Source: Aromatoleum evansii (GTDB lineage Bacteria; Pseudomonadota; Gammaproteobacteria; Burkholderiales; Rhodocyclaceae). Taken from it: 64,000 nucleotides of DNA. The notes below the pieces were generated by a model. The model saw only the letters and a program-made list of their open reading frames with translations. It made no database searches and was not told the DNA's origin. The DNA lies in NCBI RefSeq assembly GCF_012910805.1, contig NZ_WTVK01000028.1, positions 1 through 64,000 of the forward strand, written 5' to 3'. Both the position numbers and the translations under genes were made by a program. Position 1 is the first letter of the stretch, and each line of letters starts with the position of its first letter. Of the stretch, positions 11,021 to 48,503 are shown one piece after another.

Positions 11021-12475
11021 ATGAGCATCGAATTTCTCATCAACTTCACGCCGCAGGAGACGCGCGTAGCGATCGTCGAGCAGGGTGTGGTGCAGGAGCT
11101 GCACGTCGAGCGCACCGCCAGCCGAGGCATCGTCGGCAACATCTACCTCGGCAAGGTCGTGCGTGTGCTGCCGGGAATGCAGTCGGCCTTCATCGACATC
11201 GGCCTCGAACGCACCGCCTTCCTGCACGTCGCGGACATCTGGAGCGATCGCCACAACGGCGACACCGGCAAGCCGATCGAGCGCATCCTCGTCGAAGGCC
11301 AGAACCTCACCGTACAGGTGCTGAAGGACCCGATCGGCACGAAGGGCGCACGCCTGTCGACGCAGATCAGCATCGCCGGGCGGCTGCTCGTGTACCTGCC
11401 CCAGGAAAAGCACATCGGCATCTCGCAGCGCATCGAGGACGAGGCCGAGCGCGAAGCGCTGCGCGAACGCCTCACGCGCCTCGTGCCCGCCGATGAGGCC
11501 GGCGGCTTCATCGTGCGCACGATGGCCGAGTCGGCCTCCGACGAGGAGCTCGCCGCCGACATCGCCTACCTGCGCAAGCTGTGGGGCGAGATCCGCAACA
11601 GCTCGACCGGGCGTTTCCCGCCGGCAGTGCTCTACGAAGACCTCGGCCTCGGCCAGCGCGTGCTGCGCGATCTGGTCAACGACGACACGACGCGCATCCT
11701 CGTCGACTCGCGCGAGAACTTCCAGAAGCTCACCGCCTTCGCCTCCGAGTACAGCCCCAAGGTGCTGCCCCTGCTCGAACACTATGGCGGCGAGCGTCCG
11801 CTGTTCGACCTGCACAGCGTCGAGGAGGAGATCCAGAAGGCGCTCGCGCGGCGCGTGAACCTGAAATCCGGCGGCTACCTGATCATCGACCAGACCGAGG
11901 CGATGACCACCGTCGACGTGAACACCGGCGGCTTCGTCGGCGCACGCAACTTCGACGACACGATCTTCAAGACCAACCTCGAGGCGGCGCAGACGATCGC
12001 GCGCCAGCTGCGCCTGCGCAACCTCGGCGGCATCATCATCATCGACTTCATCGACATGGAAAACCCCGAGCACCGCGACATGGTGCTCGACGAGTTCCGC
12101 AAGGCGCTCGCGCGCGACCACACCAAGATGACGGTGAATGGCTTCACCGCACTGGGGCTGGTCGAAATGACGAGGAAGCGCACGCGCGAATCGCTCGCCC
12201 ACCTGCTGTGCGAGCCCTGCCCGACCTGTGGCGGACGCGGCGAGGTCAAGACCGCGCGCACGGTGTGCTACGAGATCCTGCGCGAACTGCTGCGCGAGGC
12301 GCGCCAGTTCAACGCGCGCGAATTCCGCGTGCTCGCCGCGCCCAACGTGATCGACCTCTTCCTCGACGAGGAGTCGCAGTCGCTCGCGATGCTGTCGGAC
12401 TTCATCGGCAAGAAGATCTCGCTGCACCCGGAGGCGAGCTACTCGCAGGAACAGTTCGACATCGTGCTGCTGTGA
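11021..12475 (+). CDS. rng: ribonuclease G
   Basis: A 484-residue endoribonuclease of the RNase E/G family, acting in 16S rRNA 5' maturation and mRNA decay. It starts MSIEFLINFTPQETRVAIVE, contains the S1 domain (GNIYLGKVVRVLPGMQSAFIDIG), the catalytic DNase I-like segment around IIIIDFIDMENPEHR with metal-binding aspartates, and the zinc-link CEPCPTCGGRG. It lacks the long C-terminal scaffold of RNase E, so RNase G is preferred; length matches. An in-frame extension upstream is not conserved. Its stop overlaps a GTG that starts the prenyltransferase gene (GTGA). Confidence 0.95.
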   Translation: MSIEFLINFTPQETRVAIVEQGVVQELHVERTASRGIVGNIYLGKVVRVLPGMQSAFIDIGLERTAFLHVADIWSDRHNGDTGKPIERILVEGQNLTVQVLKDPIGTKGARLSTQISIAGRLLVYLPQEKHIGISQRIEDEAEREALRERLTRLVPADEAGGFIVRTMAESASDEELAADIAYLRKLWGEIRNSSTGRFPPAVLYEDLGLGQRVLRDLVNDDTTRILVDSRENFQKLTAFASEYSPKVLPLLEHYGGERPLFDLHSVEEEIQKALARRVNLKSGGYLIIDQTEAMTTVDVNTGGFVGARNFDDTIFKTNLEAAQTIARQLRLRNLGGIIIIDFIDMENPEHRDMVLDEFRKALARDHTKMTVNGFTALGLVEMTRKRTRESLAHLLCEPCPTCGGRGEVKTARTVCYEILRELLREARQFNAREFRVLAAPNVIDLFLDEESQSLAMLSDFIGKKISLHPEASYSQEQFDIVLL

Positions 12476-13434
12476 CGGCCCCCGCGACGCCCCGAGGCGT
12501 GGAGCCGACGCCACAGCGCTTCGGCAGCGCACCGCTGCGTTACTTCGCCGCAACGCGACCTGCCTTCCTCAGCGTGACGCTGGTCGGCTGCCTGATCGGC
12601 CTGGCTGCGGCGCGCGCCGATGGAGTCCCCCTGGACACCTTGCGGGCAGTCGTCGCCGTGGCGTTCGCCCTACTCGCCCATGCGGGCGCGAACGTGCTCA
12701 ACGACTACCACGACGCCCTGAGCGGCGCCGACGCCGCGAACACCGACCGGCTCTACCCCTTCACCGGCGGCAGCCGTTTCATCCAGAACGGCATCCTGAC
12801 GGCAGGCCAGACCGCAGGCTTCGCCTACGCGCTGCTCGGGCTGGTCGTGCCGGCCGGGCTGTGGCTCGCGTACGGCTCGGGGGGAGGCCTGATCGCGATC
12901 GGGTTCGCGGGACTCGTCCTCGGCTGGGCCTACTCGGCACCGCCGCTCAAGCTCGCGAGCCGCGGGCTAGGCGAGTTAGCCATCGCCGGCGCGTGGTTGC
13001 TGGTCATCGTCGGCACGGACTTCGTTCAGCGCGGGACGTTTGCGTGGACGCCCGTCGCGGCAGGCCTGTCGTTCGCGCTGCTGGTCGCGAACCTGCTCTT
13101 CATCAACCAGTTCCCCGACCGCGCGGGAGACGAGGCCGCCGGCAAGCGCACGCTGGTCGTGCGCCTGGGCGCGGATACGGCGAAATGGGGCTACTTCGCG
13201 ATCGCGCTCGTGGCCTACGGCTGGCTAGTGCTGCAGGTCGGACGCTACAACCTGCCCCAGGCTTGCGCAGCCGCGGCGCTGACGCTGGTGCTGTCGCTCA
13301 ACGCGGCACGGCAACTGCGCGAGCATGCGGCCGACCCGGCCGAACTGCGCCCGGCGATCAAGCTGACGATCGCGGCCACGAACCTCCACGGTCTGGTGCT
13401 CGCCGCCACGCTCGCCTTCGCCCGCCATACCTGA
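12472..13434 (+). CDS. UbiA-family prenyltransferase, MenA-like
   Basis: A 320-residue integral membrane prenyltransferase with about eight hydrophobic helices. The first aspartate-rich motif reads [20 protein letters not shown] (residues about 75-94) and the second [15 protein letters not shown] (near residue 208). The NDYxDxxxGxD form resembles 1,4-dihydroxy-2-naphthoate prenyltransferases (MenA) rather than 4-hydroxybenzoate UbiA, but the substrate cannot be fixed from sequence. The frame opens far upstream inside rng; a GTG overlapping the rng stop by four bases is the likely start. It lies between rng and ruvA. If it makes menaquinone it would connect with the frd and CbcL-like genes at 35-42 kb. 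Confidence 0.78.
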
Positions 13435-29605: not shown

Positions 29606-30208
29606 ATGGCCTACCGGATCGAAGGACGACTGCTGGAAGTGTGCACCTGCAAGGCGATCTGCCCGTGCTGGATCGGTGACGACCCCGACGGCGGCACCTG
29701 CGATGGCACGCTCGCCTGGCACATCGACAAGGGCGAGGTCGGCGGCACCGACGTGTCGGGCCTCACCTTCGGCATGCTGGCACACATCCCCGGCAACGTT
29801 CTGAAGGGCAACTGGCGCGCCCTCGCCTTCGTGGATGAACGCGCGAGCCCGGCGCAGGAAGAGGCCCTGCTCTCGGTATTCACCGGCAAACTCGGCGGGC
29901 CGGTCGCGGATCTCGCACAACTGGTCGGCGAAGTGGTCGGGGTGGAACGCGTCGGGATCGAGTTCGACGTCAAGGAAGGCTCGGGGCGCCTGCGCATCGG
30001 CAATGTCGTCGCCGCCGACCTCGAATGCGCACGCGGACCTGGCGAGCGCCCGACGGTGATGAGCGACACGATCTTCTCGACGATTCCCGGCTCGCCGGCC
30101 TACATCGGCCGCGCACCGCTCTATCGTGCACAGTCGGAACCGCTCGGCATCAAGGTCGACCTGAGCGGCTACAACTCGGTGCAAGGCGCCTTCTGCTTCC
30201 AGGCCTGA
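29606..30208 (+). CDS. DUF1326 domain-containing protein
   Basis: A 200-residue cytosolic protein of the DUF1326 family. The N-terminus MAYRIEGRLLEVCTCKAICPCWIGDDPDGGTC contains five cysteines in CTC and CPC type pairs, which suggests metal or thiol chemistry. The remainder is a beta-rich domain (GTLAWHIDKGEVGG, GRLRIGNVVAADLECARGPG, LSGYNSVQGAFCFQA). Function is unknown. An AAGGAG site lies seven bases before the ATG. The DUF2182 membrane-protein gene follows after 29 bases; the two families are commonly adjacent, which implies a shared function that remains undetermined. Confidence 0.85.
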   Translation: MAYRIEGRLLEVCTCKAICPCWIGDDPDGGTCDGTLAWHIDKGEVGGTDVSGLTFGMLAHIPGNVLKGNWRALAFVDERASPAQEEALLSVFTGKLGGPVADLAQLVGEVVGVERVGIEFDVKEGSGRLRIGNVVAADLECARGPGERPTVMSDTIFSTIPGSPAYIGRAPLYRAQSEPLGIKVDLSGYNSVQGAFCFQA

Positions 30209-30237
30209 CCCCCGTAACCGCCCGATTTTCCGAGTCC

Positions 30238-31035
30238 ATGGCCGCGGCGCAAGCTCCGCTGCGCGCGATCTCCCGGCGCGACACCTTCACCGTCGCGCTG
30301 GGAGCGCTTGTGCTCGCCGCGTGGGCGGCCCTGTGGCTGTGGGAGCGCTCGCCCTACGGACGCTACCTCAACCATGCCGAACTCGGCGGCCTCGCGCATG
30401 CCGCGTCGGCCGATGCGGTGCTGGCGCAGTCGGCCCTGTACGTCGGCGGCTGGCTGTTGATGACGATCGCGATGATGCTGCCGACGACGCTGCCGCTGCT
30501 CGACGCCTTCCGCCGCATGACCGCGTTGCGCGACGACCGCCGCCGGTTGCTCGCCCTGGTGATCGCGAGCTACCTCGGCGTATGGCTCGCGGCGGGCGCC
30601 GCGATGCATCTGTTCGATTTCGGCCTGCACGAAGCCTTCGAGCACTTCGCCTGGCTGCAGGCCAATGCATGGGTATTCGGCGCCGCGCCGCTGTTGCTGG
30701 CCGGCGCCTTCCAGTTCTCGGACCTCAAGCACCGTTGCCTCGAGCGTTGTCGTGCGCCGGTCGGCTTCGTCATCCAGCACTGGCGCGGTGGCAGCCCCGC
30801 GCTCCAGTCGCTGGCGATCGGCGCACACCATGGCCTCTTCTGCGTCGGCTGCTGCTGGGCGCTGATGCTGCTGATGTTCGCAGTCGGCACCGGCAGCATC
30901 GGCTGGATGCTCGCGCTCGGCGCCGTGATGGCGATCGAGAAGAACCTGAGCTGGGGTCGCCGCCTCAGCGCGCCGCTGGGCATCGCGCTGCTGCTGTGGG
31001 GCGGCGCGATCGCCTTGTCGCAGTTGCTTGCCTGA
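30238..31035 (+). CDS. DUF2182 integral membrane protein
   Basis: A 265-residue membrane protein with six to seven helices. The core segment LMTIAMMLPTTLPLLDAFRRM is typical of DUF2182 (annotated elsewhere as predicted metal-binding integral membrane protein). It also contains SDLKHRCLERCRAP and GAHHGLFCVGCCWALMLLMFAVG, with conserved His/Cys residues that could bind a metal near the membrane surface. It ends GIALLLWGGAIALSQLLA. The ATG at 30238 follows 29 bases after the DUF1326 stop. Role unknown. Confidence 0.83.
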   Translation: MAAAQAPLRAISRRDTFTVALGALVLAAWAALWLWERSPYGRYLNHAELGGLAHAASADAVLAQSALYVGGWLLMTIAMMLPTTLPLLDAFRRMTALRDDRRRLLALVIASYLGVWLAAGAAMHLFDFGLHEAFEHFAWLQANAWVFGAAPLLLAGAFQFSDLKHRCLERCRAPVGFVIQHWRGGSPALQSLAIGAHHGLFCVGCCWALMLLMFAVGTGSIGWMLALGAVMAIEKNLSWGRRLSAPLGIALLLWGGAIALSQLLA

Positions 31036-35568: not shown

Positions 35569-37581
35569 TCAGTGCGAGCCGAAGAAGCCGATCGCGACCA
35601 GGGTCAGCAGCGTCAGGCCGGCCACGATCAGAGTGAAGCCGAGGATCTTCGAGCCCAGCGCCATCGGGCGTGAGGGCGCATCCACGATGTACTTCTCCAG
35701 TTCCCCGCTCTTCTGCAGGCGCTCGTACTCGAGCGCGTGCTCGCGGCGGTACTCCTCGACCGACATCGAACCCGTGAACATCACGACCTCCAGTGGGAAC
35801 TTGTCCGGGCGGAAGTGGTTGTTGAAGAAATGCACGGTGAACAGGAATACCACCGCCAGGAAGGCTTCCTCGCTGTGGAAGATCGCCGCGACGTTGAACA
35901 CCCAGCCCGGCAGGAAGGTGGCCGTGATCGTCGAGGCCCACATCAGCAATCCGCTCACGCCGATGATGGTCACCCCCCAGAACGGCGCCCAGTAGTCGAA
36001 CTTCTCCCAGTAGGTCCAGCGGTCGAACACGGGGCGCTCGCCCTTGCCGAAGAACCACTTCAGCATCGCGATGAAGTCCTTGCCGTCCTGCAAACCCGGA
36101 ACCAGCGAGGTGGGGCCGAAGATGCGGAATTCCTTCCAGTTGCGTGCGAGCTTCAGCGCGACGTAGCCGAGGTGCCAGAAGAACACGGCCGCGAAGATCA
36201 CCGCATTGACGCGGTGGATCAGCCCCGCGACCTGTGGTCCGCCCAGCGCCTTCATCAACGGTGCGGCCCAGGGGGCGTCCGGATAGAACAGTGGGATGCC
36301 CGTAAGCGTCAGGATCATCAGGCTCAGCGCGAACGTGAGGTGAGCGATGCGCCAGGTCGCGGAGAAGCGACGGAAGTGCTTGCCCGCGTGCTTGTCGCCC
36401 TGGAGGCCCGGTGCGTCGGTGCGCATGTGCGGGGGCACCTTGCCCTGCTGGCGGTCACGCAGTTCGCGCCAGAACCACAGCAGCGTGTGCAGCCAGAAGA
36501 AGCCGAAGGTGCCGAGCAGCAACTGGATCATCAACTGGTTGGCGAGCCACATCTGCGGGTAGCGCTCGAAATCGCCCGTGTGGCCGTGCGGCTGGAAGCT
36601 GGCGAATCCGGGCGGCGCCTCAGGCAGGTCCTTCTTGCCGTTGTGGCATTCCTTGCAAGTCTTCATCCGGTTGTCCGGATGCACCTTGGAGTCCGGGTTC
36701 TTGACCGCCAGCACGTCGTGGCTGCCGTGGCAGTCGAAGCACTTGGCGGTATAGGCGTAGCCCAGCGTGTTGATCTGGCCGTGGTAGGTCGCCTTGTAGG
36801 ACTTGAAGTTTTCCTCGTGGCAGTTGCCGCACTCGGCCGTCACCGCGAGCTTGAACGGCGCGAGCGAGGTGTTGCCGACCGCATGGGCGCTATGGCAATC
36901 GCTGCACACGGCGGCCTTCGCGTCCTTCTTCTGGAAGATCGCCTCGCCGTGGATCGATTCGGTGAAGGTCTCGAGCGATTCCTCGTGGCAGCTCTTGCCG
37001 CAGGTTTCGGGCACGCCCAGGCGCCACTCCGCGTACTGAGGCGAATCCTTGGGCGGGACATTGAAACTATGGCTACTGTGACATTCGTCACAGCTTGCGT
37101 TCGGCCGTGTGGGATCGTCGGCGTTCTTGCGCGCGTGGAACGACTCCTTGTACGCGGCGATGTTCTCGGCGACCACGCCGAGGCGCGGCCTGTCCTTCGC
37201 GGTCCCGTCCTGCCTGGCGCGCTCCCACAGCTCTTCGTGACAGGACGCGCAGTCCTTGGCCTTCAACGCCGGATCCTTCTTGTGCGTATCGTCCGGTTCG
37301 GCGTTGTCGGTGATTTCGGTGTGGCACGCGACGCAATCCATCTTCGCATGCACGCCCTTGGCGAACGCATCGGGCGGAATGGAATGCAGTTCGCGCGACT
37401 CGCCGTCGGTGCCGGGCACCTCGATGGCATCCTTGCTGCCGTCGTGGCAGCTCAGACACTTCGCATTCTCCAGTCCGGCAGGAGCCGCCGCGGCTGGCCC
37501 GGCGACGGCAATACACAGGGATGCCAGCAGGGCGGCGGCGGCAGCGCGAAAGTCGACGATTCTCAGGCTCGGGCTCTTCAT
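35569..37581 (-). CDS. nine-heme-motif cytochrome c fused to a cytochrome b membrane domain (CbcL-like)
   Basis: A 670-residue inner-membrane protein. The signal or anchor sequence spans residues about 1-33. The periplasmic half has eight CxxCH motifs, with first cysteines at 42, 83, 111, 164, 226, 251, 281 and 309, plus one CxxxCH at 194 (CGKSCH): nine predicted c hemes. The second half (residues about 345-665) has five to six helices with histidines placed for b hemes (WLHTLLWFW, RIAHLTFALSLM, LIHRVNAVIFAAVFFWHLGY, FTVHFFNNHF), resembling the FdnI/HydC cytochrome b. The same architecture and length describe Geobacter CbcL, an inner-membrane quinol oxidase for low-potential extracellular acceptors. 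Orthology is inferred from architecture only. It is the last gene of the minus-strand run headed by frdA, 95 bases from the heme-domain gene. Confidence 0.85.
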   Translation of the reverse strand: MKSPSLRIVDFRAAAAALLASLCIAVAGPAAAAPAGLENAKCLSCHDGSKDAIEVPGTDGESRELHSIPPDAFAKGVHAKMDCVACHTEITDNAEPDDTHKKDPALKAKDCASCHEELWERARQDGTAKDRPRLGVVAENIAAYKESFHARKNADDPTRPNASCDECHSSHSFNVPPKDSPQYAEWRLGVPETCGKSCHEESLETFTESIHGEAIFQKKDAKAAVCSDCHSAHAVGNTSLAPFKLAVTAECGNCHEENFKSYKATYHGQINTLGYAYTAKCFDCHGSHDVLAVKNPDSKVHPDNRMKTCKECHNGKKDLPEAPPGFASFQPHGHTGDFERYPQMWLANQLMIQLLLGTFGFFWLHTLLWFWRELRDRQQGKVPPHMRTDAPGLQGDKHAGKHFRRFSATWRIAHLTFALSLMILTLTGIPLFYPDAPWAAPLMKALGGPQVAGLIHRVNAVIFAAVFFWHLGYVALKLARNWKEFRIFGPTSLVPGLQDGKDFIAMLKWFFGKGERPVFDRWTYWEKFDYWAPFWGVTIIGVSGLLMWASTITATFLPGWVFNVAAIFHSEEAFLAVVFLFTVHFFNNHFRPDKFPLEVVMFTGSMSVEEYRREHALEYERLQKSGELEKYIVDAPSRPMALGSKILGFTLIVAGLTLLTLVAIGFFGSH

Positions 37582-37676
37582 CGGCAGGTGTCCATGAAAA
37601 CGCCGCGGCGAGCGCGGCGCAATCCGTTGCGACCGGCCGACGCCCCATACTGCAGGCATCGGCCCTCGGTGCTGCG

Positions 37677-38978
37677 TTACGGCAACTTCACCGCCTTGAT
37701 GTCGGCCTTGGCCCCGAACCCGATCGTCTTCACGAACGAAACCTGGTGGCCGCGCGTGGTGATGTTGTCATCATGCACAGCAAAGCCGACATTGTATACA
37801 CCTCCCGCCTTCAGGGTCTTGTCGTCGTCGTTCGTGAGCCCCAGCGGACGGATCATGACGACCGTCCATACCCCGTCCTTCCAGCTCGCGATCGCCTTGT
37901 TGTCGGCGGCCGAGCCCTTGGCGTCCTCACGGCTGACGACGTAGTCGGGGATCATGTCGCCTTCCTTCCAGCCCGCGTTCGGGTCGAAGGGCACCGCGTT
38001 CTTCTCGCGGATCAGGTGGTGCTCCCCCTGACGCAGTTGGTCGACGGTGATCGACTTGTAGCCGACCTTGCTCACGTCCCACATGAACTTCGGCTGGTGT
38101 GTCTTGGCGTCGGCGTTGCTGCCGAACATGTCCTTGCCGGCGTCGCTGTTGCGGAACTCGAGCACGTAGCCGTCGTCGGTCATGCCGACGGGGTTGCTGC
38201 GATGCGCGCGCCACTGGATGAGGTCGACGAAGCCACCGGCGGCCTTGAGCTTCGCAATCTCCTCGATGCTCTTGCCGGTCTTCCAGTCGGACGGGTCGGT
38301 GCGCGTGTCGGGCAGGTACTTGCGCACGTCGCGCTTCTTGATCGCCTGCAGCAGCGCGTTGTTGGCCACCTCGTCCTTGGTGAACTGCTTGCCCATGTCG
38401 CGCTGGCCGTCATGGCAGGTGAGCCAGCAGCCCTGGTTCGCGAAGCCGGGCACCTTGCCGTCGTCGATCATGACCGACATGCGGTCCTCGTAGATGCCCA
38501 TCTCGGTGCCATCCTGCACCGGCTTGTCGAGCCTGGGATAGCCGAAGACCTTCCACTCCTTGCCGTCGAAGCGCAGGTACTGGTGTTCGTTGCCCGGATA
38601 GGCGTTGTCCGTGTGCCACTGGAAGCGCAGATAGGCGTTCTTGCTGTCATAGGCCGCCTGCACCTTGAGCGCCTTGTAGCCGGACTTGCCCTTCACCGGG
38701 CGCGGCTCGAGCCGGCCGCCCTTGACGATTTCCTCGCCGATGTCCTTTTCGGCGTCCTCCTCGTCGTGGCACGAGGTACAGGAATCGCCGCGCTTGACCT
38801 CCTTCACCGCCCCCTCGTGCGCCTCGGTGCGCAGCCATTCGTAGGACGACTGCCCGGGGAAGAACAGCGGCACGGTCACCGTCGGAATCTTGCCCCAATT
38901 GATCTTCGCCGGATCGGCGGCCTGCGCCGCCCCCATGCCGAGAACCGCCAGGCCGACCAGCAGTACCGATTTTTTCAT
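37677..38978 (-). CDS. ethylbenzene dehydrogenase-domain cytochrome with two c-type heme motifs
   Basis: A 433-residue periplasmic protein with signal peptide (residues 1-20, ending GAAQA). Two covalent heme motifs are seen: CTSCH at 67-71 and CWLTCH at 184-189, the latter a rare CxxxCH. The body matches the ethylbenzene/DMS dehydrogenase gamma-type heme domain: LKVQAAYDSKNAYLRFQWHT, GFVDLIQWRAHRSNPVG, DGYVLEFRNSD and GVWTVVMIRPL, with NVGFAVHDDN near the C-terminus. Such proteins act as electron carriers. It is placed between frdD and the CbcL-like gene on the same strand, so it probably exchanges electrons with the multiheme protein. No molybdenum catalytic subunit is nearby. Confidence 0.83.
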   Translation of the reverse strand: MKKSVLLVGLAVLGMGAAQAADPAKINWGKIPTVTVPLFFPGQSSYEWLRTEAHEGAVKEVKRGDSCTSCHDEEDAEKDIGEEIVKGGRLEPRPVKGKSGYKALKVQAAYDSKNAYLRFQWHTDNAYPGNEHQYLRFDGKEWKVFGYPRLDKPVQDGTEMGIYEDRMSVMIDDGKVPGFANQGCWLTCHDGQRDMGKQFTKDEVANNALLQAIKKRDVRKYLPDTRTDPSDWKTGKSIEEIAKLKAAGGFVDLIQWRAHRSNPVGMTDDGYVLEFRNSDAGKDMFGSNADAKTHQPKFMWDVSKVGYKSITVDQLRQGEHHLIREKNAVPFDPNAGWKEGDMIPDYVVSREDAKGSAADNKAIASWKDGVWTVVMIRPLGLTNDDDKTLKAGGVYNVGFAVHDDNITTRGHQVSFVKTIGFGAKADIKAVKLP

Positions 38979-39088: not shown

Positions 39089-39457
39089 TCAGAATCCGAC
39101 TGCCAGCAACGCCCCTGCGGCGAGCAGCGTGGCGAGCACGGCCAGGCCGTAGCACGCGAAACGGGTCGCGCTAGCCGCATGCACGCCGAGGTCGTGCAGG
39201 CTGTGGTAGATGCGGTGCATGGCGTGCCACATGAACAGGGCGACGACGACGAACAGCAGGCCCTTGCCGGCCCAGTGCTGCGCGAAGGCATGCATGTGCG
39301 ACCAGCTCATCGCATCCGCGGGAAGGATGATCCCGAGCGGCACCGCAATGCCGGTGACGAACACGAGCACCGGACCGAAGAGCGCCGCGAGCATGCCGCC
39401 GGCGCCGAAAAGGCCCCAGAAGATGGGCGCATTGGAGCGTTTCATCGCCGGTTTCAT
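39089..39457 (-). CDS. frdD: fumarate reductase membrane subunit D
   Basis: A 122-residue membrane anchor with three hydrophobic helices (WGLFGAGGMLAALFGPVLVFVTG, WAGKGLLFVVVALFMWHAMHRIYHSLHDLG, CYGLAVLATLLAAGALLAVGF). It aligns in pattern with E. coli FrdD: the N-terminal PIFWGLFGAGGM and the second-helix HRxxHxLHDLG. With FrdC it anchors FrdAB and forms the quinone site. The ATG at 39457 overlaps the frdC stop by four bases (ATGA). A 110-base gap with a 7-bp hairpin (39010-39027) separates it from the heme-domain gene. Confidence 0.88.
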   Translation of the reverse strand: MKPAMKRSNAPIFWGLFGAGGMLAALFGPVLVFVTGIAVPLGIILPADAMSWSHMHAFAQHWAGKGLLFVVVALFMWHAMHRIYHSLHDLGVHAASATRFACYGLAVLATLLAAGALLAVGF

Positions 39458-39861
39458 CGCGTCGCCCCCCACACCGCGGCCAGCACGGCGACACTGCAGA
39501 CCGCCGCGACAGCCACGCCGCAGGCCGTGATCACCCCCGGCGCCAAGCGCTTTCCGCCGACAACGAGCGGCGGCATGGTCTTGGGCATGATGCGGAACCA
39601 GGTCCAGCAGTGGTACGAGATCGCCGCGAGCAGGACGAGGTGGAAGATGACGGACAAGGGGCTACGCAGCGCCTCCAGCCAGCCGTTCCATGCCGATTCG
39701 CCCTGCGCCAGCCGCAGCAGACCGACGAGCAGGATGAGGGCGTAGGCAGCGACGAAGAGCGCCGTCGCCTCGTGCACCATGTACTCGACGAAGTACGGAT
39801 TGCGGCGCCACCAGCCGGCCATCGGCCGCACATAGGGGCGGCGCGGATCGGACGTATTCAC
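39454..39861 (-). CDS. frdC: fumarate reductase membrane subunit C
   Basis: A 135-residue membrane anchor with three helices. The N-terminus VNTSDPRRPYVRPMAGWWRRNPYFVEYMVHEATALFV resembles E. coli FrdC ([31 protein letters not shown]). The second-helix segment AAISYHCWTWFRIMPKTMPPLVVG is likewise characteristic. The start is a GTG at 39861 that overlaps the frdB stop (GTGA); an internal ATG would lose the conserved N-terminus. Both overlaps in this operon argue for coupled translation of the four subunits. Confidence 0.9.
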   Translation of the reverse strand: MNTSDPRRPYVRPMAGWWRRNPYFVEYMVHEATALFVAAYALILLVGLLRLAQGESAWNGWLEALRSPLSVIFHLVLLAAISYHCWTWFRIMPKTMPPLVVGGKRLAPGVITACGVAVAAVCSVAVLAAVWGATR

Positions 39862-40622
39862 TTTGCACCTCCCTTCGGGCGGGCAAGCCGCAGGAAGTAG
39901 TCGCCCGCCGCGCGCGTCTTGTTCTGGTTCACGGCATTGGCCGGATCGACGTGCTTCGGGCACACCTCGGAGCAGTAACCGACCGCAGTGCAGTTGAAGA
40001 CGCCTGCTTCCGACCCGGCGATCTCCATGCGCTCGGCGGCGGCGCCGTCGCGCGAATCTGCGTTGTAGCGGTGCAGCAGGGCCATGATGCCCGGCCCGAC
40101 GAAGTCCGGATTGAGGCCGTACTGGGGACATGCGGCGTAGCACAGCAGGCAGTTGATACAGGAACTGAACTGCTCGTACACGTCGAGCTGCGCGGGCGTC
40201 TGCAGGTACTCGCCCTGCGCGATGGACCGTTGTTCCTTCGGGATGATCCACGGCTTGATGCTTTCGAGCTTGGCGAGGAAGTCGTCCATGCGGATCACCA
40301 GATCGCGCTCGACCGGGAAGTGGGCGAGCGCCTCGACGCGCACGGCTCCGGCAGGGAAATCGCGCAGGAAGGTCTTGCACGCGAGGCGCGGCTCGCCGTC
40401 TATCATCATCCCGCAGCTGCCGCAGATCGCCATGCGGCAGGACCAGCGGAAGCTCAGGGTGCCGTCGAGCCAGTCCTTGATGTACTGCAGGCCCTGCAGC
40501 ACCGACATGTCGTCGCTGAAGGGAACCTCGTAAGCTTGCAGGAAGGGCTCCTCGTCCTGCTCGGGACGATAGCGCAGGACCTCGATGCGGATGACCTTCC
40601 CGTTCCTGTGCGATTCAGACAC
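39858..40622 (-). CDS. frdB: fumarate reductase iron-sulfur subunit
   Basis: A 254-residue subunit that relays electrons from quinol to FrdA. The [2Fe-2S] ligands are in SCRMAICGSCGMMIDGEPRLACK (Cys62, 67, 70, 82). The C-terminal domain holds CINCLLCYAACP (Cys155, 158, 161, 165) and CTAVGYCSEVCPKHVDP for the 4Fe and 3Fe clusters. The C-terminal sequence is very close to E. coli FrdB and unlike SdhB. It overlaps frdA by eight bases and frdC by four. Confidence 0.94.
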   Translation of the reverse strand: MSESHRNGKVIRIEVLRYRPEQDEEPFLQAYEVPFSDDMSVLQGLQYIKDWLDGTLSFRWSCRMAICGSCGMMIDGEPRLACKTFLRDFPAGAVRVEALAHFPVERDLVIRMDDFLAKLESIKPWIIPKEQRSIAQGEYLQTPAQLDVYEQFSSCINCLLCYAACPQYGLNPDFVGPGIMALLHRYNADSRDGAAAERMEIAGSEAGVFNCTAVGYCSEVCPKHVDPANAVNQNKTRAAGDYFLRLARPKGGAK

Positions 40623-42417
40623 GGTTCGCCCCTCCCTGCTGTGCCGCCTGCTCCTGCTCCGCTTTCTCGCCCGCGGCGCCGTAGGCGCGGGTGCCCGGGG
40701 GCAGGCGCGTGATCTTCACGTCGCCATAGCCGATGCGCGGGGCGTCGGCGCCGGCGTGATGAGCGAGCGAGTGCCTGAGGAAATTGACGTCGTCGCGCTC
40801 GCCGAAACCGTCCAGCCGCTGGTGCGCGCCGCGCGACTCGCGCCGCTCGAGCGCCGACCACGCCATCGCCTGCGCGACCTCGAGCTGATACCCGAGCTCG
40901 ATGGCGAGCAGCCAGTCGGTGTTCCACACGCTCGAGCGGTCCTCGACCTTGACCTTGCGGTAGCGCTCGCGCAGCTCCGCCAGCTTGTCGCAGGTCGCCT
41001 GCATGGTGTCGGCCTGACGGTAGATGCCGCAACCGTCCTCCATGCTCTGTGCCATCTCCTTGCGCAGCGTGGCGATGCGCTCGGTGCCGGAAGTGTTTGT
41101 CACGAGATCGAGCGCACGCTGCTGCGACGCCTCGGCCTGTTTCAGCAACACATCCGTCGGACCGGACGCGACCGAACGGGCGAACGCGGCGGCCTCGACC
41201 CCCGCGGTCTTGCCGAACACGCACAGTTCGGCGAGCGAGTTCGAGCCGAGGCGGTTGGCGCCGTGAATGCCGACGCTGGAACATTCGCCGGCCGCGTACA
41301 GCCCCGGCAGCGGCGCGGCACACCGGCCGTCGACGAGGATGCCGCCCATCGTGTAATGCACGGCGGGCCGCACCGGGATCGGCGTCTTCGCCGGATCGAC
41401 GCCGAGGAATTCCTCGGCCAGTTCGTAGATCTGCGGCAGGCGCTCGCGCAGCTTGGCTTCGCCGAGGTGGCGCAGGTCCAGATGCACGACCGCCCCGTGC
41501 GGGCCGTCTATCGTGCGGCCTTTCTGCTGCTCGTACCAGAAGGCCTGGCTGAGGCGGTCGCGGGGCCCCAGTTCCATCGCCTTGTTGCGCGGCGTCGGCT
41601 CGGCCGGCCCAAGGCCGTAGTCCTGCAGGTAGCGGTAACCGTCGCGATTCAGCAGGAAGCCGCCCTCGCCGCGGCACGCCTCGGTGAACAGCAGGCCCGT
41701 GCCCGGCATGCAGGTGGGGTGGTACTGGACGAATTCCATGTCGCGCAGCGGCACGCCGTGGCGGTACGCGAGCGCCATGCCGTCGCCGGTGACGATGCCG
41801 CCGTTGGTGTTCTCGCGGAACACGCGCCCGGCGCCGCCGGTGGCGAGAATCACCGCGTTGGCCTGGATCAGCGTGAAGCGGCGCGACGCGATGTCGACGA
41901 CGACGACGCCCTGCACCCGCCCGTCCTCGACGACTAGGTCGAGGCAGAAATGCTCGTCGAAGCGACGGATCGAGGGGTACTTGAGCGAGGTCTGGAACAG
42001 CGTGTGCAGCATGTGGAAGCCGGTCTTGTCGGCGGCGAACCACGTGCGCTCGATCTTCATGCCGCCGAAGGCGCGCACGTTGATGTGGCCATCCGGCTTG
42101 CGGCTCCACGGACAGCCCCAGTGCTCGAGCTGCACCATCTCCTCGGTGCAGCGGGCGACGAAGTCCTCGACGACGTCCTGCTCGCACAGCCAGTCGCCGC
42201 CGGCAACGGTATCGTGGAAATGGTGTTCGAGGCTGTCGTGGGCCTGCACGACGCCGGCCGATCCACCCTCGGCCGCCACGGTGTGGCTGCGCATCGGGTA
42301 GACCTTGGAGACCAGCGCGATCTTCAGCGACGGGTCGGTCTCGGCAGCCGCGATCGCGGCACGCAGGCCCGCTCCGCCCGCACCGACGATGGCGACGTCT
42401 GCCTTCCAGGCATCCAT
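40615..42417 (-). CDS. frdA: fumarate reductase flavoprotein subunit
   Basis: A 600-residue flavoprotein that reduces fumarate to succinate in anaerobic respiration. FAD binding is shown by VGAGGAGLRAAIAAAE at the N-terminus and the covalent attachment site RSHTVAAEGGSAG (His45). ERTWFAADKTGFHMLHTLFQTS, VQYHPTCMPGTGLL and YTMGGILVD match E. coli FrdA closely, and the length (602 in E. coli) agrees; succinate dehydrogenase A is therefore less likely. The ATG at 42417 has a GGGGGAA site eight bases upstream. First gene of frdABCD; the upstream region has inverted repeats of possible regulatory use. dctA lies 1.3 kb beyond on the other strand. Confidence 0.95.
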   Translation of the reverse strand: MDAWKADVAIVGAGGAGLRAAIAAAETDPSLKIALVSKVYPMRSHTVAAEGGSAGVVQAHDSLEHHFHDTVAGGDWLCEQDVVEDFVARCTEEMVQLEHWGCPWSRKPDGHINVRAFGGMKIERTWFAADKTGFHMLHTLFQTSLKYPSIRRFDEHFCLDLVVEDGRVQGVVVVDIASRRFTLIQANAVILATGGAGRVFRENTNGGIVTGDGMALAYRHGVPLRDMEFVQYHPTCMPGTGLLFTEACRGEGGFLLNRDGYRYLQDYGLGPAEPTPRNKAMELGPRDRLSQAFWYEQQKGRTIDGPHGAVVHLDLRHLGEAKLRERLPQIYELAEEFLGVDPAKTPIPVRPAVHYTMGGILVDGRCAAPLPGLYAAGECSSVGIHGANRLGSNSLAELCVFGKTAGVEAAAFARSVASGPTDVLLKQAEASQQRALDLVTNTSGTERIATLRKEMAQSMEDGCGIYRQADTMQATCDKLAELRERYRKVKVEDRSSVWNTDWLLAIELGYQLEVAQAMAWSALERRESRGAHQRLDGFGERDDVNFLRHSLAHHAGADAPRIGYGDVKITRLPPGTRAYGAAGEKAEQEQAAQQGGANRV

Positions 42418-43763: not shown

Positions 43764-45149
43764 TTGGCAAAGAAACCGTTTTACACGTCGCTGTACTTCC
43801 AGGTCATCGTCGCCATCGTGATCGGCGTGCTGCTGGGGCACTTCTACCCGCAGACCGGCGCCGCGATGAAACCGCTGGGTGACGGCTTCATCAAGCTGAT
43901 CAAGATGATCATCGCCCCGATCATCTTCTGTACCGTCGTCGTCGGCATCGCCGGCATGGAGGACATGAAGAAGGTCGGCAAGACCGGCGGCTTCGCGCTG
44001 CTGTATTTCGAGATCGTCAGCACCATCGCACTGATCGTCGGACTCGTGATCGTCAACGTGGTCAAGCCGGGCGCCGGCATGAACATCGACGTGACGACGC
44101 TGGACACGAAGGCGATCGCCGCCTATACCGACCCGTCGAAGATGCAGAGCACGACGGACTTCCTGCTGCACGTGATCCCGACCACCGTGGTCGACGCCTT
44201 CGCGAAGGGCGAGATCCTGCAGGTGCTGCTGTTCTCCGTGCTGTTCGGCTTCGCGCTGCACAAGTTCGGCGGCCGCGGCACGCTGGTGTTCGACTTCATC
44301 GAGAAGTTCTCGCACGTGCTGTTCGGCATCGTCGGCTACATCATGAAGGTCGCCCCGATCGGCGCCTTCGGCGCGATGGCCTTCACCATCGGCAAGCACG
44401 GCGTCGGCGCGCTGGCGCAGCTGGGCATGCTGATGGCGACCTTCTACCTGACCTGCATCGTCTTCATCTTCGGCGTGCTGGGGGCGATCGCCAAGGCGCA
44501 CGGCTTCTCGGTCGTGAAGCTGATCCGCTATATCAAGGAAGAGCTGCTGATCGTGCTGGGCACCTCGTCGTCGGAATCGGCGCTGCCGCGCCTGATGGCG
44601 AAGATGGAGAACCTCGGCTGCAAGAAGTCGACGGTCGGCCTGGTGGTCCCGACGGGCTACTCGTTCAACCTCGACGGCACCTCGATCTACCTGACGATGG
44701 CGGCCGTGTTCATCGCCCAGGCGACCAACACCCCGCTCGACATCACGCAGCAGCTGACCCTGCTCGCGGTGCTGCTGCTGACCTCGAAGGGCGCGGCCGG
44801 CATCACCGGCAGCGGCTTCATCGTGCTCGCGGCGACGCTGTCGGCCGTCGGCGGCGTACCGGTCGCGGGCCTCGCGCTGATCCTCGGCATCGACCGCTTC
44901 ATGTCGGAAGCTCGTGCGCTGACCAACCTGATCGGCAACAGCGTGGCGACCGTGGTCGTCGCCAAGTGGTGCAAGGACGTCGACATGAAGGTGCTCAACA
45001 GCCACCTGAACAACGAGACCGTCGAGGAAGCCGACGATCCCGAAGCCGTGCTCGACCTGCAGGACGCGCACATGGACGTTCGCCCGGCCGTGGCCAGGGT
45101 GGAAGAAGCCACCGAAATGCCGCCGCTCGCCGTGCCCGCCCGCGCGTAA
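43764..45149 (+). CDS. dctA: C4-dicarboxylate transport protein DctA
   Basis: A 461-residue secondary transporter of the DAACS family that imports succinate, fumarate and malate with protons or sodium. Signatures: [84 protein letters not shown] and the long re-entrant region near [13 protein letters not shown]. The start codon is TTG at 43764, preceded by AGGAGAGG. It neighbours frdABCD across one transporter gene, so the pair could supply and reduce fumarate. A strong terminator follows. Confidence 0.95.
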
Positions 45150-47605: not shown

Positions 47606-48133
47606 TCAGTTCGTCCCCGAGACCGGACCCTGCATCAGCTTCGCGGCCACCAGTCCATTGACCAGGCCGAACACCGTCGCGGCGAGGGCGAATACCGGCA
47701 CGAGGTAGAACACGCCGTCGTGGGGCACGAGCCACAAGCGCGCGAGCACGAGCTGCCCGCCGATATGCGCGAAGGCGGCGAACACGCTGAGGCTGACGGG
47801 GCCGAACCAGCGGCGCGGCAGGTGCATCGCAAGGCCGAGCGTGGCGAGGCTGGCGAGCGAACCGGCGAGGCTGAGGAAAAAGCCCGGCGCGAAGAGCTGG
47901 CCGAGCAACAGGCTGCCGGCGAACACGCGCAGCAGCGCCACCCATACGGCGTCGCGCCAGCCCCAGCGCGCCAGCACGATCAGCGTCACGATGTTGGCCA
48001 GGCCCGGCTTCACGCCCGGCAGCGGCAGCGGAATCGCGGCCTCGGCGACGGTGAGCACGATCGCGGCGGCGGCCAGGCGCGCGATGCGCCGGTCGTCCGC
48101 GGTCGGGACGATCTCAATAGTTGAGGGAGTCAT
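47606..48133 (-). CDS. Gx transporter family membrane protein
   Basis: A 175-residue integral membrane protein with about five helices. The motif IPLPLPGVKPGLANIVTLIVL (GxKPGLAN) is the signature of the family formerly annotated as heptaprenyl diphosphate synthase component I; it is now viewed as an ECF-type S-component or membrane partner. The ATG at 48133 overlaps the NusG-domain gene by 20 bases; a GTG at 48145 is an alternative start. It is the last of the run rapZ, NusG-II and Gx on the minus strand. Confidence 0.82.
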   Translation of the reverse strand: MTPSTIEIVPTADDRRIARLAAAAIVLTVAEAAIPLPLPGVKPGLANIVTLIVLARWGWRDAVWVALLRVFAGSLLLGQLFAPGFFLSLAGSLASLATLGLAMHLPRRWFGPVSLSVFAAFAHIGGQLVLARLWLVPHDGVFYLVPVFALAATVFGLVNGLVAAKLMQGPVSGTN

Positions 48134-48503
48134 AGTCCGCGGCACCGCCGGCGAGGCTCAGGGACACCTGGTTGGGGGCGCAGATCGCCACCGCCCCCGA
48201 GCGCGTCAGCCAGCCCTGGCGCACGCAGTACTGGCGCGGCCCGGGATCGGATGCGACGCGTGCGCGGCCCGGCTCGATCTCGATGCGGGTGATGCCGAGC
48301 GGGCCGGGCACCTCGACCACCTGCGCGCGCGCGAGCCCCGTTTCCGCGAAGACCTTGCCGCCCGCGCGCACGACCACCCTGTCCGGCGCCCCGCCACGCC
48401 ACAGCGCCAGCGCCGACAATACGCACAGCGACAACGCACCGGCGAGCACGAGCCAGTCGCCCGGCCGCAGCAGGACGACCCACTCGGACAGACGCGCCCT
48501 CAC
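48114..48503 (-). CDS. NusG domain II-containing membrane-anchored protein
   Basis: A 129-residue protein with an N-terminal membrane helix (residues about 15-36, [19 protein letters not shown]) followed by a small beta domain typical of NusG domain II proteins: [33 protein letters not shown] and [24 protein letters not shown]. The CVRQGW and AICAPN cysteines are conserved in this family, which commonly neighbours Gx transporters. It starts with a GTG that overlaps the rapZ stop by four bases. Function is not established. Confidence 0.82.

Follow-up and report, generated by a model that had tools for sequence, protein, structure and literature searches.

The window analysed here – the whole of a 64,000-nucleotide stretch of the Aromatoleum evansii genome (contig NZ_WTVK01000028.1, positions 1 to 64,000) – carries a gene for a CbcL-like protein, a predicted fusion of a multiheme cytochrome c with a b-type membrane domain, and our concern is as much with the company this gene keeps as with the gene itself. 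It stands last in a cluster on the minus strand, in which the genes for a fumarate reductase (frdABCD) are followed by the gene for a cytochrome with an EB_dh domain and then by cbcL. The features, in order of position, are as follows.

35569 to 37581, minus strand: CbcL/MtrH/MtoC-type cytochrome (cbcL), with a nine-heme c domain at about residues 40-315, six long helices and a predicted FdnI-like diheme b domain at residues 398-630
37677 to 38978, minus strand: EB_dh-domain cytochrome of 433 amino acids (PF09459, E 2.3e-64)
39089 to 39472, minus strand: frdD, fumarate reductase membrane subunit (PF02313, E 1.4e-44)
39454 to 39843, minus strand: frdC, fumarate reductase membrane subunit, start codon unsettled (PF02300, E 5.5e-45)
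39858 to 40622, minus strand: frdB, iron-sulfur subunit (PF13085, E 7.4e-33)
40615 to 42417, minus strand: frdA, flavoprotein of an E. coli-type quinol:fumarate reductase (NF006686), ATG at 42417
43764 to 45149, plus strand: Na+/dicarboxylate symporter of the SDF family (PF00375, E 4.2e-115), divergent from the cluster

From frdA to cbcL the successive gaps are -8, about 17, about -19, 110 and 95 bases, the last two lying between frdD and the EB_dh gene and between the EB_dh gene and cbcL. FrdA scores 1057 bits against the NF006686 cut-off of 854 and, together with the FrdC and FrdD anchors PF02300 (matching residues 180-303 of the open reading frame, or ORF, at 39454-40380) and PF02313, identifies an E. 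coli-type FrdABCD. An EamA transporter gene beside the SDF symporter gene also diverges from the cluster; the symporter is plausibly an importer of C4-dicarboxylates. An earlier note on this DNA located cbcL correctly and missed the frdABCD and EB_dh genes directly upstream, yet it is this context that carries most of the functional information on the CbcL-like protein.

The cbcL reading frame runs from an ATG at 37581 to a stop at 35569 and encodes 670 amino acids, with an N-terminus that is signal-like as judged by eye; starting instead from the in-frame ATG at 37659 would lengthen the protein by 26 residues. All nine heme motifs lie inside the first 313 residues – eight CxxCH, at residues 42, 83, 111, 164, 226, 251, 281 and 309, and a single CxxxCH (CGKSCH) at residue 194 – where chance would give a mean of 0.12 and a maximum of 2 (the first 330 residues shuffled 2,000 times). 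The nine motifs are invariant in all 48 rows of an alignment of CbcL-type sequences selected from 82 copies, in which nine other histidines of the c domain never vary either (78, 100, 149, 171, 211, 233, 267, 288 and 332). Because motifs and extra histidines are both invariant, the nine c hemes are likely to be bis-His ligated.

For the membrane half, profile matches to the formate dehydrogenase gamma subunit (TIGR01583, E 1.9e-8, 34.6 bits) and to Ni_hydr_CYTB (E 3.7e-4, 20.8 bits) fall under the respective NCBIfam cut-off of 115.85 and Pfam gathering score of 30.1, and a Foldseek search of the predicted model against the PDB gave no match at E <= 0.001. The model itself (mean pLDDT, the predicted local distance difference test score, 78.5) shows six long helices in its C-terminal half, and residues 398-630 superpose on FdnI (1kqf_C) with a Z score of 14.4 and a root-mean-square deviation of 2.8 over 202 residues (VIA-align 2), the next best structural match reaching Z 10.5. 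Histidines 414, 456, 569 and 584, invariant in 48 of 48 rows, align with FdnI H18, H57, H155 and H169 (positions counted on the alignment), which we take to be the heme b ligands of FdnI. By predicted fold and conserved residues, then, the membrane half is a b-type cytochrome. With FdnI, the gamma subunit of formate dehydrogenase-N, it has the fold and the four histidines in common; it differs in its donor, which in FdnI is formate dehydrogenase and here would be a chain of nine hemes within the protein itself. One frame of 275 residues (G452:C66:61937-62743) matches just the b domain, at 63% identity, and is a possible stand-alone b subunit.

Members of the CbcL/MtrH/MtoC family are recognised by an N-terminal multiheme c domain with 3-23 motifs (nine in CbcL) and by about six C-terminal transmembrane helices, similar to HydC/FdnI, with conserved histidines. 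The nine motifs of the window protein, its six long helices, the match to FdnI and the invariant histidines place it in this family, which has already been described in Betaproteobacteria; the gene itself is not new. Nine heme motifs – eight CxxCH and one CxxxCH – in the N-terminal part, a CbcL-like union of such a domain with an FdnI-type b domain, and a betaproteobacterial host were all proposed in the earlier note, and the reading frame, the motif count and the superposition on FdnI bear these proposals out. The same note had raised the possibility that relatives serve a tetrathionate or nitrite reductase. No gene of such a system was found among the nameable neighbours, many other neighbour genes being unnamed, and weak PDB matches to NrfA and NrfB covered heme stretches only; the neighbours that could be named in relatives' loci are fumarate reductase, Mtr/Mto conduit genes, NapC/CymA-type, EB_dh and monoheme cytochromes, and RquA.

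The EB_dh cytochrome, taken as periplasmic from a signal-like N-terminus judged by eye, has a CxxCH motif at residue 67 and a CxxxCH motif at residue 184, both invariant in eight of eight aligned sequences. It is not a plain gamma subunit of the EbdC type (24.6 against 400 bits for EbdC, 44.4 against 169.85 for TIGR03477), and no gene for an alpha or beta subunit of a type II DMSO reductase was found among the neighbouring ORFs scanned. Its structure model has a mean pLDDT of 39.8 and was hence set aside as evidence.

Evidence that the proximity of cbcL and frd is more than a local curiosity came from the loci of relatives, taken as the best 80 of 584 places matched by cbcL. Thirteen of the 80 have frdA beside cbcL, all of them in the window's half of the tree; in L003, frdB-D and the EB_dh gene stand between the two, and four of the 13 (L006, L013, L026 and L037) are truncated at a contig end. 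Where no annotated record existed, genes were called with a simple ORF picker, which missed some frd genes and placed a spurious one over one rquA; the labelled genes were checked by tblastn. After frd, seven of the 13 loci have a methyltransferase gene with a genome match above the NCBIfam cut-off for RquA, the enzyme that forms rhodoquinone; a representative locus-linked RquA scores 315 bits against the cut-off of 175. In Comamonadaceae relatives the order is cbcL-frdABCD-rquA, and in four further loci (L015, L017, L018 and L019) cbcL is directly followed by rquA, so that rquA adjoins cbcL or cbcL-frd in 11 of the 80. The fullest form is found in L134 (genome G264), where mono-cbcL-mtrC-mtrA-mtrB-rquA-frdABCD lie on one strand (mono being our label for a family of small monoheme cytochromes); L150, from another genus (G588), repeats this order up to frdA, where the stretch ends.

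How cbcL-rquA pairs without frd came about is suggested by L148, in which only short remnants of frdA and frdD (12387-12696) lie between cbcL and rquA: apparently a frd operon decayed here and left the two genes side by side. Similar decay may explain the other pairs; no frd remnant was detected in L015, L017, L018 or L019 at E 1e-4. The FrdA proteins of the window and of G264 are about 58-60% identical to those of the Rhodoferax-type loci (63.5% for one partial row), and long, fully supported branches set two FrdA clades apart. Since both of these distant clades are linked to cbcL, the pairing either came about at least twice or exchanged its frd. Three further observations concern gene copies. 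Many of these genomes have, as an additional copy, an RquA homolog of about 110-125 bits, below the cut-off; L138 (G103:C82) has two CbcL-like genes (65%) and a distant third (27%), together with genes of several heme motifs; and three adjacent ORFs of L133 (G132:C61) match the EB_dh cytochrome at 47-51%, as tandem genes or as one broken gene.

Within Aromatoleum the gene is patchy and its setting stable: a window-type cbcL (at least 75% identity) is present in eight of the 17 genomes of the genus, the window's own included, and the order SDF-EamA-frd-EB_dh-cbcL is kept in all six further genomes examined (the seven other carriers less G462). Some of these loci have frdB or frdD unlisted, labelled reference ORFs overlapping them. 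The closest named relative among the matches listed, from Aromatoleum toluolicum, is 91% identical and has an identical gene order, and frd-EB_dh-cbcL is likewise retained in L003. A paralog, 57% identical, is encoded on contig C16 of the same genome, where mtrA and mtrB accompany it in a cluster ordered monoheme-mtrA-mtrB-cbcL (L083). Among the 81 copies placed in a tree, this paralog shares a clade with those from Gallionella, Sideroxyarcus, Sulfuricella and Rhodocyclaceae, while the window gene and L003 are sister to a 34-row, mostly Comamonadaceae clade (Shimodaira-Hasegawa-like approximate likelihood ratio support 84). Because paralog and window gene belong to separate clades, the organism seems to have two specialised CbcL versions.

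The rquA linkage directs attention to the quinone. The genome of A. evansii encodes an RquA (G000:C11:62133-62783) that scores 285.9 bits against the cut-off of 175, with the motif LLQAACVYG where the locus-linked RquA has LQVACVYG; by this marker the host would be a rhodoquinone producer. The menaquinone markers fall below their cut-offs in the same genome: 84.6 against 244 bits at best for MenD and 295.8 against 428 for MqnC, the latter in a 1029-residue frame. As far as markers show, its low-potential quinone can only be rhodoquinone, for which a potential of -63 mV is given in PMC11707229; rhodoquinol is classically oxidised by fumarate reductase (PMC5953543). Across 29 genome handles, of which G248 and G418 look like one organism (same places), only G243 and G419 have a MenD match above the cut-off, and no MqnC match reaches its own. 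The MqnC-like stretch of the A. evansii genome lies at G000:C315:10925-11968 and could, at a guess, be a cofactor F420-type fusion.

Distribution across genomes provides a second line of evidence, with the reservation that all Fisher p values given here were computed without regard to kinship. In an order-level sample of 399 genomes, FrdA occurs in 14, a long cbcL match in 21 and both in six (p 2.3e-5; 1.9e-4 minus the window's own genome); the 21 exclude b-domain-only matches (G309, G338 and G387) and include two, G002 and G201, whose matches are without the N-terminal part. FrdA and RquA (36 genomes) coincide in eight (p 4e-6). Close, uncut EB_dh homologs were found in five order-level genomes, all of which have cbcL and four FrdA. 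Among the genomes of the closest cbcL relatives (49 genomes, from 50 of the 80 loci, L033 being left out) RquA exceeds the cut-off in 34, a count for which taxonomy could account. The contrast between the two halves of the tree, 30 of 36 against four of 13 (p 0.001), is confounded by taxonomy, and the comparison was therefore repeated within the family of G264, sampled at nearly one genome per genus. There, with G264 itself excluded, rquA is present in six of seven genomes with a full-length cbcL, in the single genome with a partial match not at all, and in none of 56 without (p 1e-7 to 4e-7), the 56 being every second one (odd handle numbers) of the 129 family genomes that have no cbcL.

The neglect of kinship is the first of several points that weigh against a tie between cbcL, rhodoquinone and fumarate reductase. 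Across the order, RquA does not follow cbcL significantly (four of 21 genomes against 32 of 378, p 0.11), and two of those four barely reach the cut-off (G103 at 175.0 in two pieces, G381 at 176.9), leaving two of 21 when marginal matches are removed. Nor does RquA track cbcL within the genus: it is found in 15 of 16 other Aromatoleum genomes whatever their cbcL status. The host's own rquA lies on a contig other than that of the window, and the gene in the rquA position of L005 (13277-14077) encodes a homolog of 112 bits, below the cut-off and not counted as RquA. Rhodoquinone cannot be a universal requirement: in G248 and G322, frd, EB_dh and cbcL are all present while RquA, MenD and MqnC stay below cut-off. 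An EB_dh match without cbcL occurs in G266 (80% identical, cut by a contig end and 70% complete), and three distant EB_dh homologs (36-46% identity) stand in genomes without a cbcL match. No mtrA/mtoA, mtrB/mtoB or other gene for an outer-membrane conduit was found among the 32 window ORFs scanned. Finally, the direction of electron flow is not readable from sequence.

The quinone-linked periplasmic wire suggested in the earlier note is a reasonable reading. Going further, we consider it probable that the protein is an inner-membrane oxidoreductase joining rhodoquinone to periplasmic cytochromes, with Frd as its partner on the same pool, whichever way the electrons run. That they run inward – from the periplasm through the CbcL-like protein to rhodoquinone, and on through FrdABCD to fumarate – is a more tentative proposition, to which we give rather less than even weight. 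On the periplasmic side, the EB_dh cytochrome and the nine c hemes would exchange electrons; the c-heme chain would pass them to the two membrane b hemes; these would reduce rhodoquinone near the cytoplasmic side; and FrdABCD would reoxidise the rhodoquinol and reduce fumarate. The analysis itself shows the domain anatomy, the conserved histidines, the gene linkage, and a genome with rquA and with no MenD or MqnC above cut-off; the use of rhodoquinone, the contact with the EB_dh cytochrome, the transfer to or from Frd and the direction we infer. An FdnI-type b subunit works together with FrdABCD in formate-to-fumarate respiration, and inward flow appears somewhat more likely than outward because the cluster would repeat that layout with the donor enzyme replaced by a heme wire. 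Broader still, and doubtful as it stands, is the proposal of an electron-uptake respiration in which outside or periplasmic electrons pass by a CbcL-type protein and rhodoquinone to fumarate in Betaproteobacteria without menaquinone synthesis, encoded as one transferable unit of a conduit or EB_dh cytochrome, cbcL, rquA and frdABCD. Were it true, rhodoquinone would replace menaquinone in the low-potential extracellular electron transfer of this lineage.

Three other explanations deserve to be weighed. Nearly as likely as the inward path, and itself possible rather than probable, is that a single rhodoquinol pool has two outlets, FrdABCD and an outward route through the CbcL-like protein and periplasmic cytochromes, needed together under anoxic, low-potential conditions. 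Geobacter CbcL is a proposed quinol oxidase (PMC6295460), both Fe(III) and fumarate serve Rhodoferax ferrireducens as respiratory acceptors (PMC2755013), and mtrCAB is present in L134 and L150; but two outlets alone leave unexplained the one-strand row of conduit, quinone enzyme and frd in those same loci, and the window copy has no conduit gene adjacent to it among the ORFs scanned.

It is improbable that FrdABCD acts mainly as an anaerobic succinate dehydrogenase, or as a source of succinate for heme synthesis, serving a cytochrome-rich metabolism while CbcL works on ubiquinone. Succinate for heme synthesis has been proposed for mtr-linked frd, with bidirectional extracellular electron transfer as the other option (PMC8805035), and G248 and G322, lacking all three quinone markers above cut-off, would fit. 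FrdA nevertheless scores as a quinol:fumarate reductase, and the presence of rquA in the row in L134 and L150, and after frd in seven of the 13 cbcL-frd loci, speaks for a low-potential quinone and for fumarate reduction. The least probable explanation – a quinone reductase of the MtoC type that passes electrons from Fe(II) or some other external or periplasmic donor to ubiquinone and stands beside frd in Aromatoleum by accident – can appeal to an identical protein family and to the cluster and clade of paralog L083, but the window copy lies outside that clade and is sister (84) to the one holding the other frd- and rquA-linked copies, and linkage to two distant frd lineages with co-occurrence in separate genera is hard to call accidental.

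Other features of the window can be dealt with briefly. Counts of promoters and terminators are at chance level, and no FNR-box-like site was found in the window with one mismatch allowed. A Hpre_diP_synt_I gene (47606-48145, minus strand) adjoins a gene with a NusG_II domain (about 48114-48480, minus strand); such pairs presumably resemble EetA/EetB, which in Firmicutes belong to flavin-based extracellular electron transfer, and a literature search joining EetA, EetB and NusG found nothing. On the plus strand, at 29606-31035, a DUF1326 gene is followed by a PpoB2 ('copper chaperone') gene.

To name the gene a candidate for an undescribed system of the lineage, as the earlier note did, goes too far, given that MtrH/MtoC (PMC6295460) and an mtrCAB-frdABCD neighbourhood (PMC8805035) are already in print. 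New, as far as we found, is the linking of cbcL with rquA and frd and, for Aromatoleum, of frd with EB_dh and cbcL. Neither rhodoquinone nor frd is mentioned in the main text of PMC6295460, and the main text of PMC8805035 makes no mention of rhodoquinone, rqu, a methyltransferase, ethylbenzene or Aromatoleum. Within the indexed literature that our searches reached, no work was found joining rhodoquinone with a multiheme cytochrome, CbcL with Aromatoleum, rhodoquinone with Rhodoferax and iron reduction, or ethylbenzene dehydrogenase with mtoC; matches to rhodoquinone and extracellular electron transfer, judged by title and the start of the abstract, held none that bore on the question. If our reading is true, rhodoquinone would be a part of extracellular electron transfer, on which the same searches found no paper. 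What the analysis offers is a proposal, open to test, as to which quinone and which partner the CbcL-type proteins of Betaproteobacteria use: the linkage of rquA and frdABCD brings the quinone and the direction of the CbcL/MtrH/MtoC proteins within reach of mutants and quinone assays.

Comparison with known systems begins with CbcL of Geobacter sulfurreducens, which, by its description in PMC6295460, has an N-terminal nine-heme c domain and a six-helix HydC/FdnI-like b domain, as here, and is there put at about 35% identity to the betaproteobacterial homologs. Unlike it, the window protein has one CxxxCH among its nine motifs, a host with no MenD or MqnC above cut-off, and an frdABCD and EB_dh context. 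Closer to hand are the CbcL homologs MtrH and MtoC, described in that paper from Rhodoferax ferrireducens, Dechloromonas aromatica and Gallionella, with homologs both in Betaproteobacteria that reduce Fe(III) and in those that oxidise Fe(II). Among the matches listed, the window protein is 53-91% identical to copies from Aromatoleum, Rhodoferax, Ramlibacter, Gallionella and others, those from Rhodoferax and Gallionella genomes standing at 55-68%; with the named MtrH and MtoC proteins the comparison is by description. As PMC6295460 describes them, MtrH and MtoC adjoin mtr/mto conduit genes or other cytochromes, whereas the window copy adjoins frdABCD and EB_dh; the MtoC layout is that of the genome's own paralog, L083.

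Two published neighbourhoods come nearest to the arrangement reported here. In the Group 4 mtrCAB clusters reported in 2022, betaproteobacterial frdABCD likewise stands beside a cluster for extracellular electron transfer, often with mtoC, and is absent from related genomes without mtrCAB; succinate for heme synthesis or electron transfer in both directions are the suggested roles, and a transferred mtrCAB/pdsA/cymA cluster is said to function only where menaquinone genes are present (PMC8805035). The window cluster, by contrast, is without mtrCAB. In the rquA-complex II neighbourhoods described in eLife in 2018 (PMC5953543), rquA likewise lies close to complex II genes, in a proposed operon; the section devoted to them links no CbcL-type protein or multiheme conduit to these genes.

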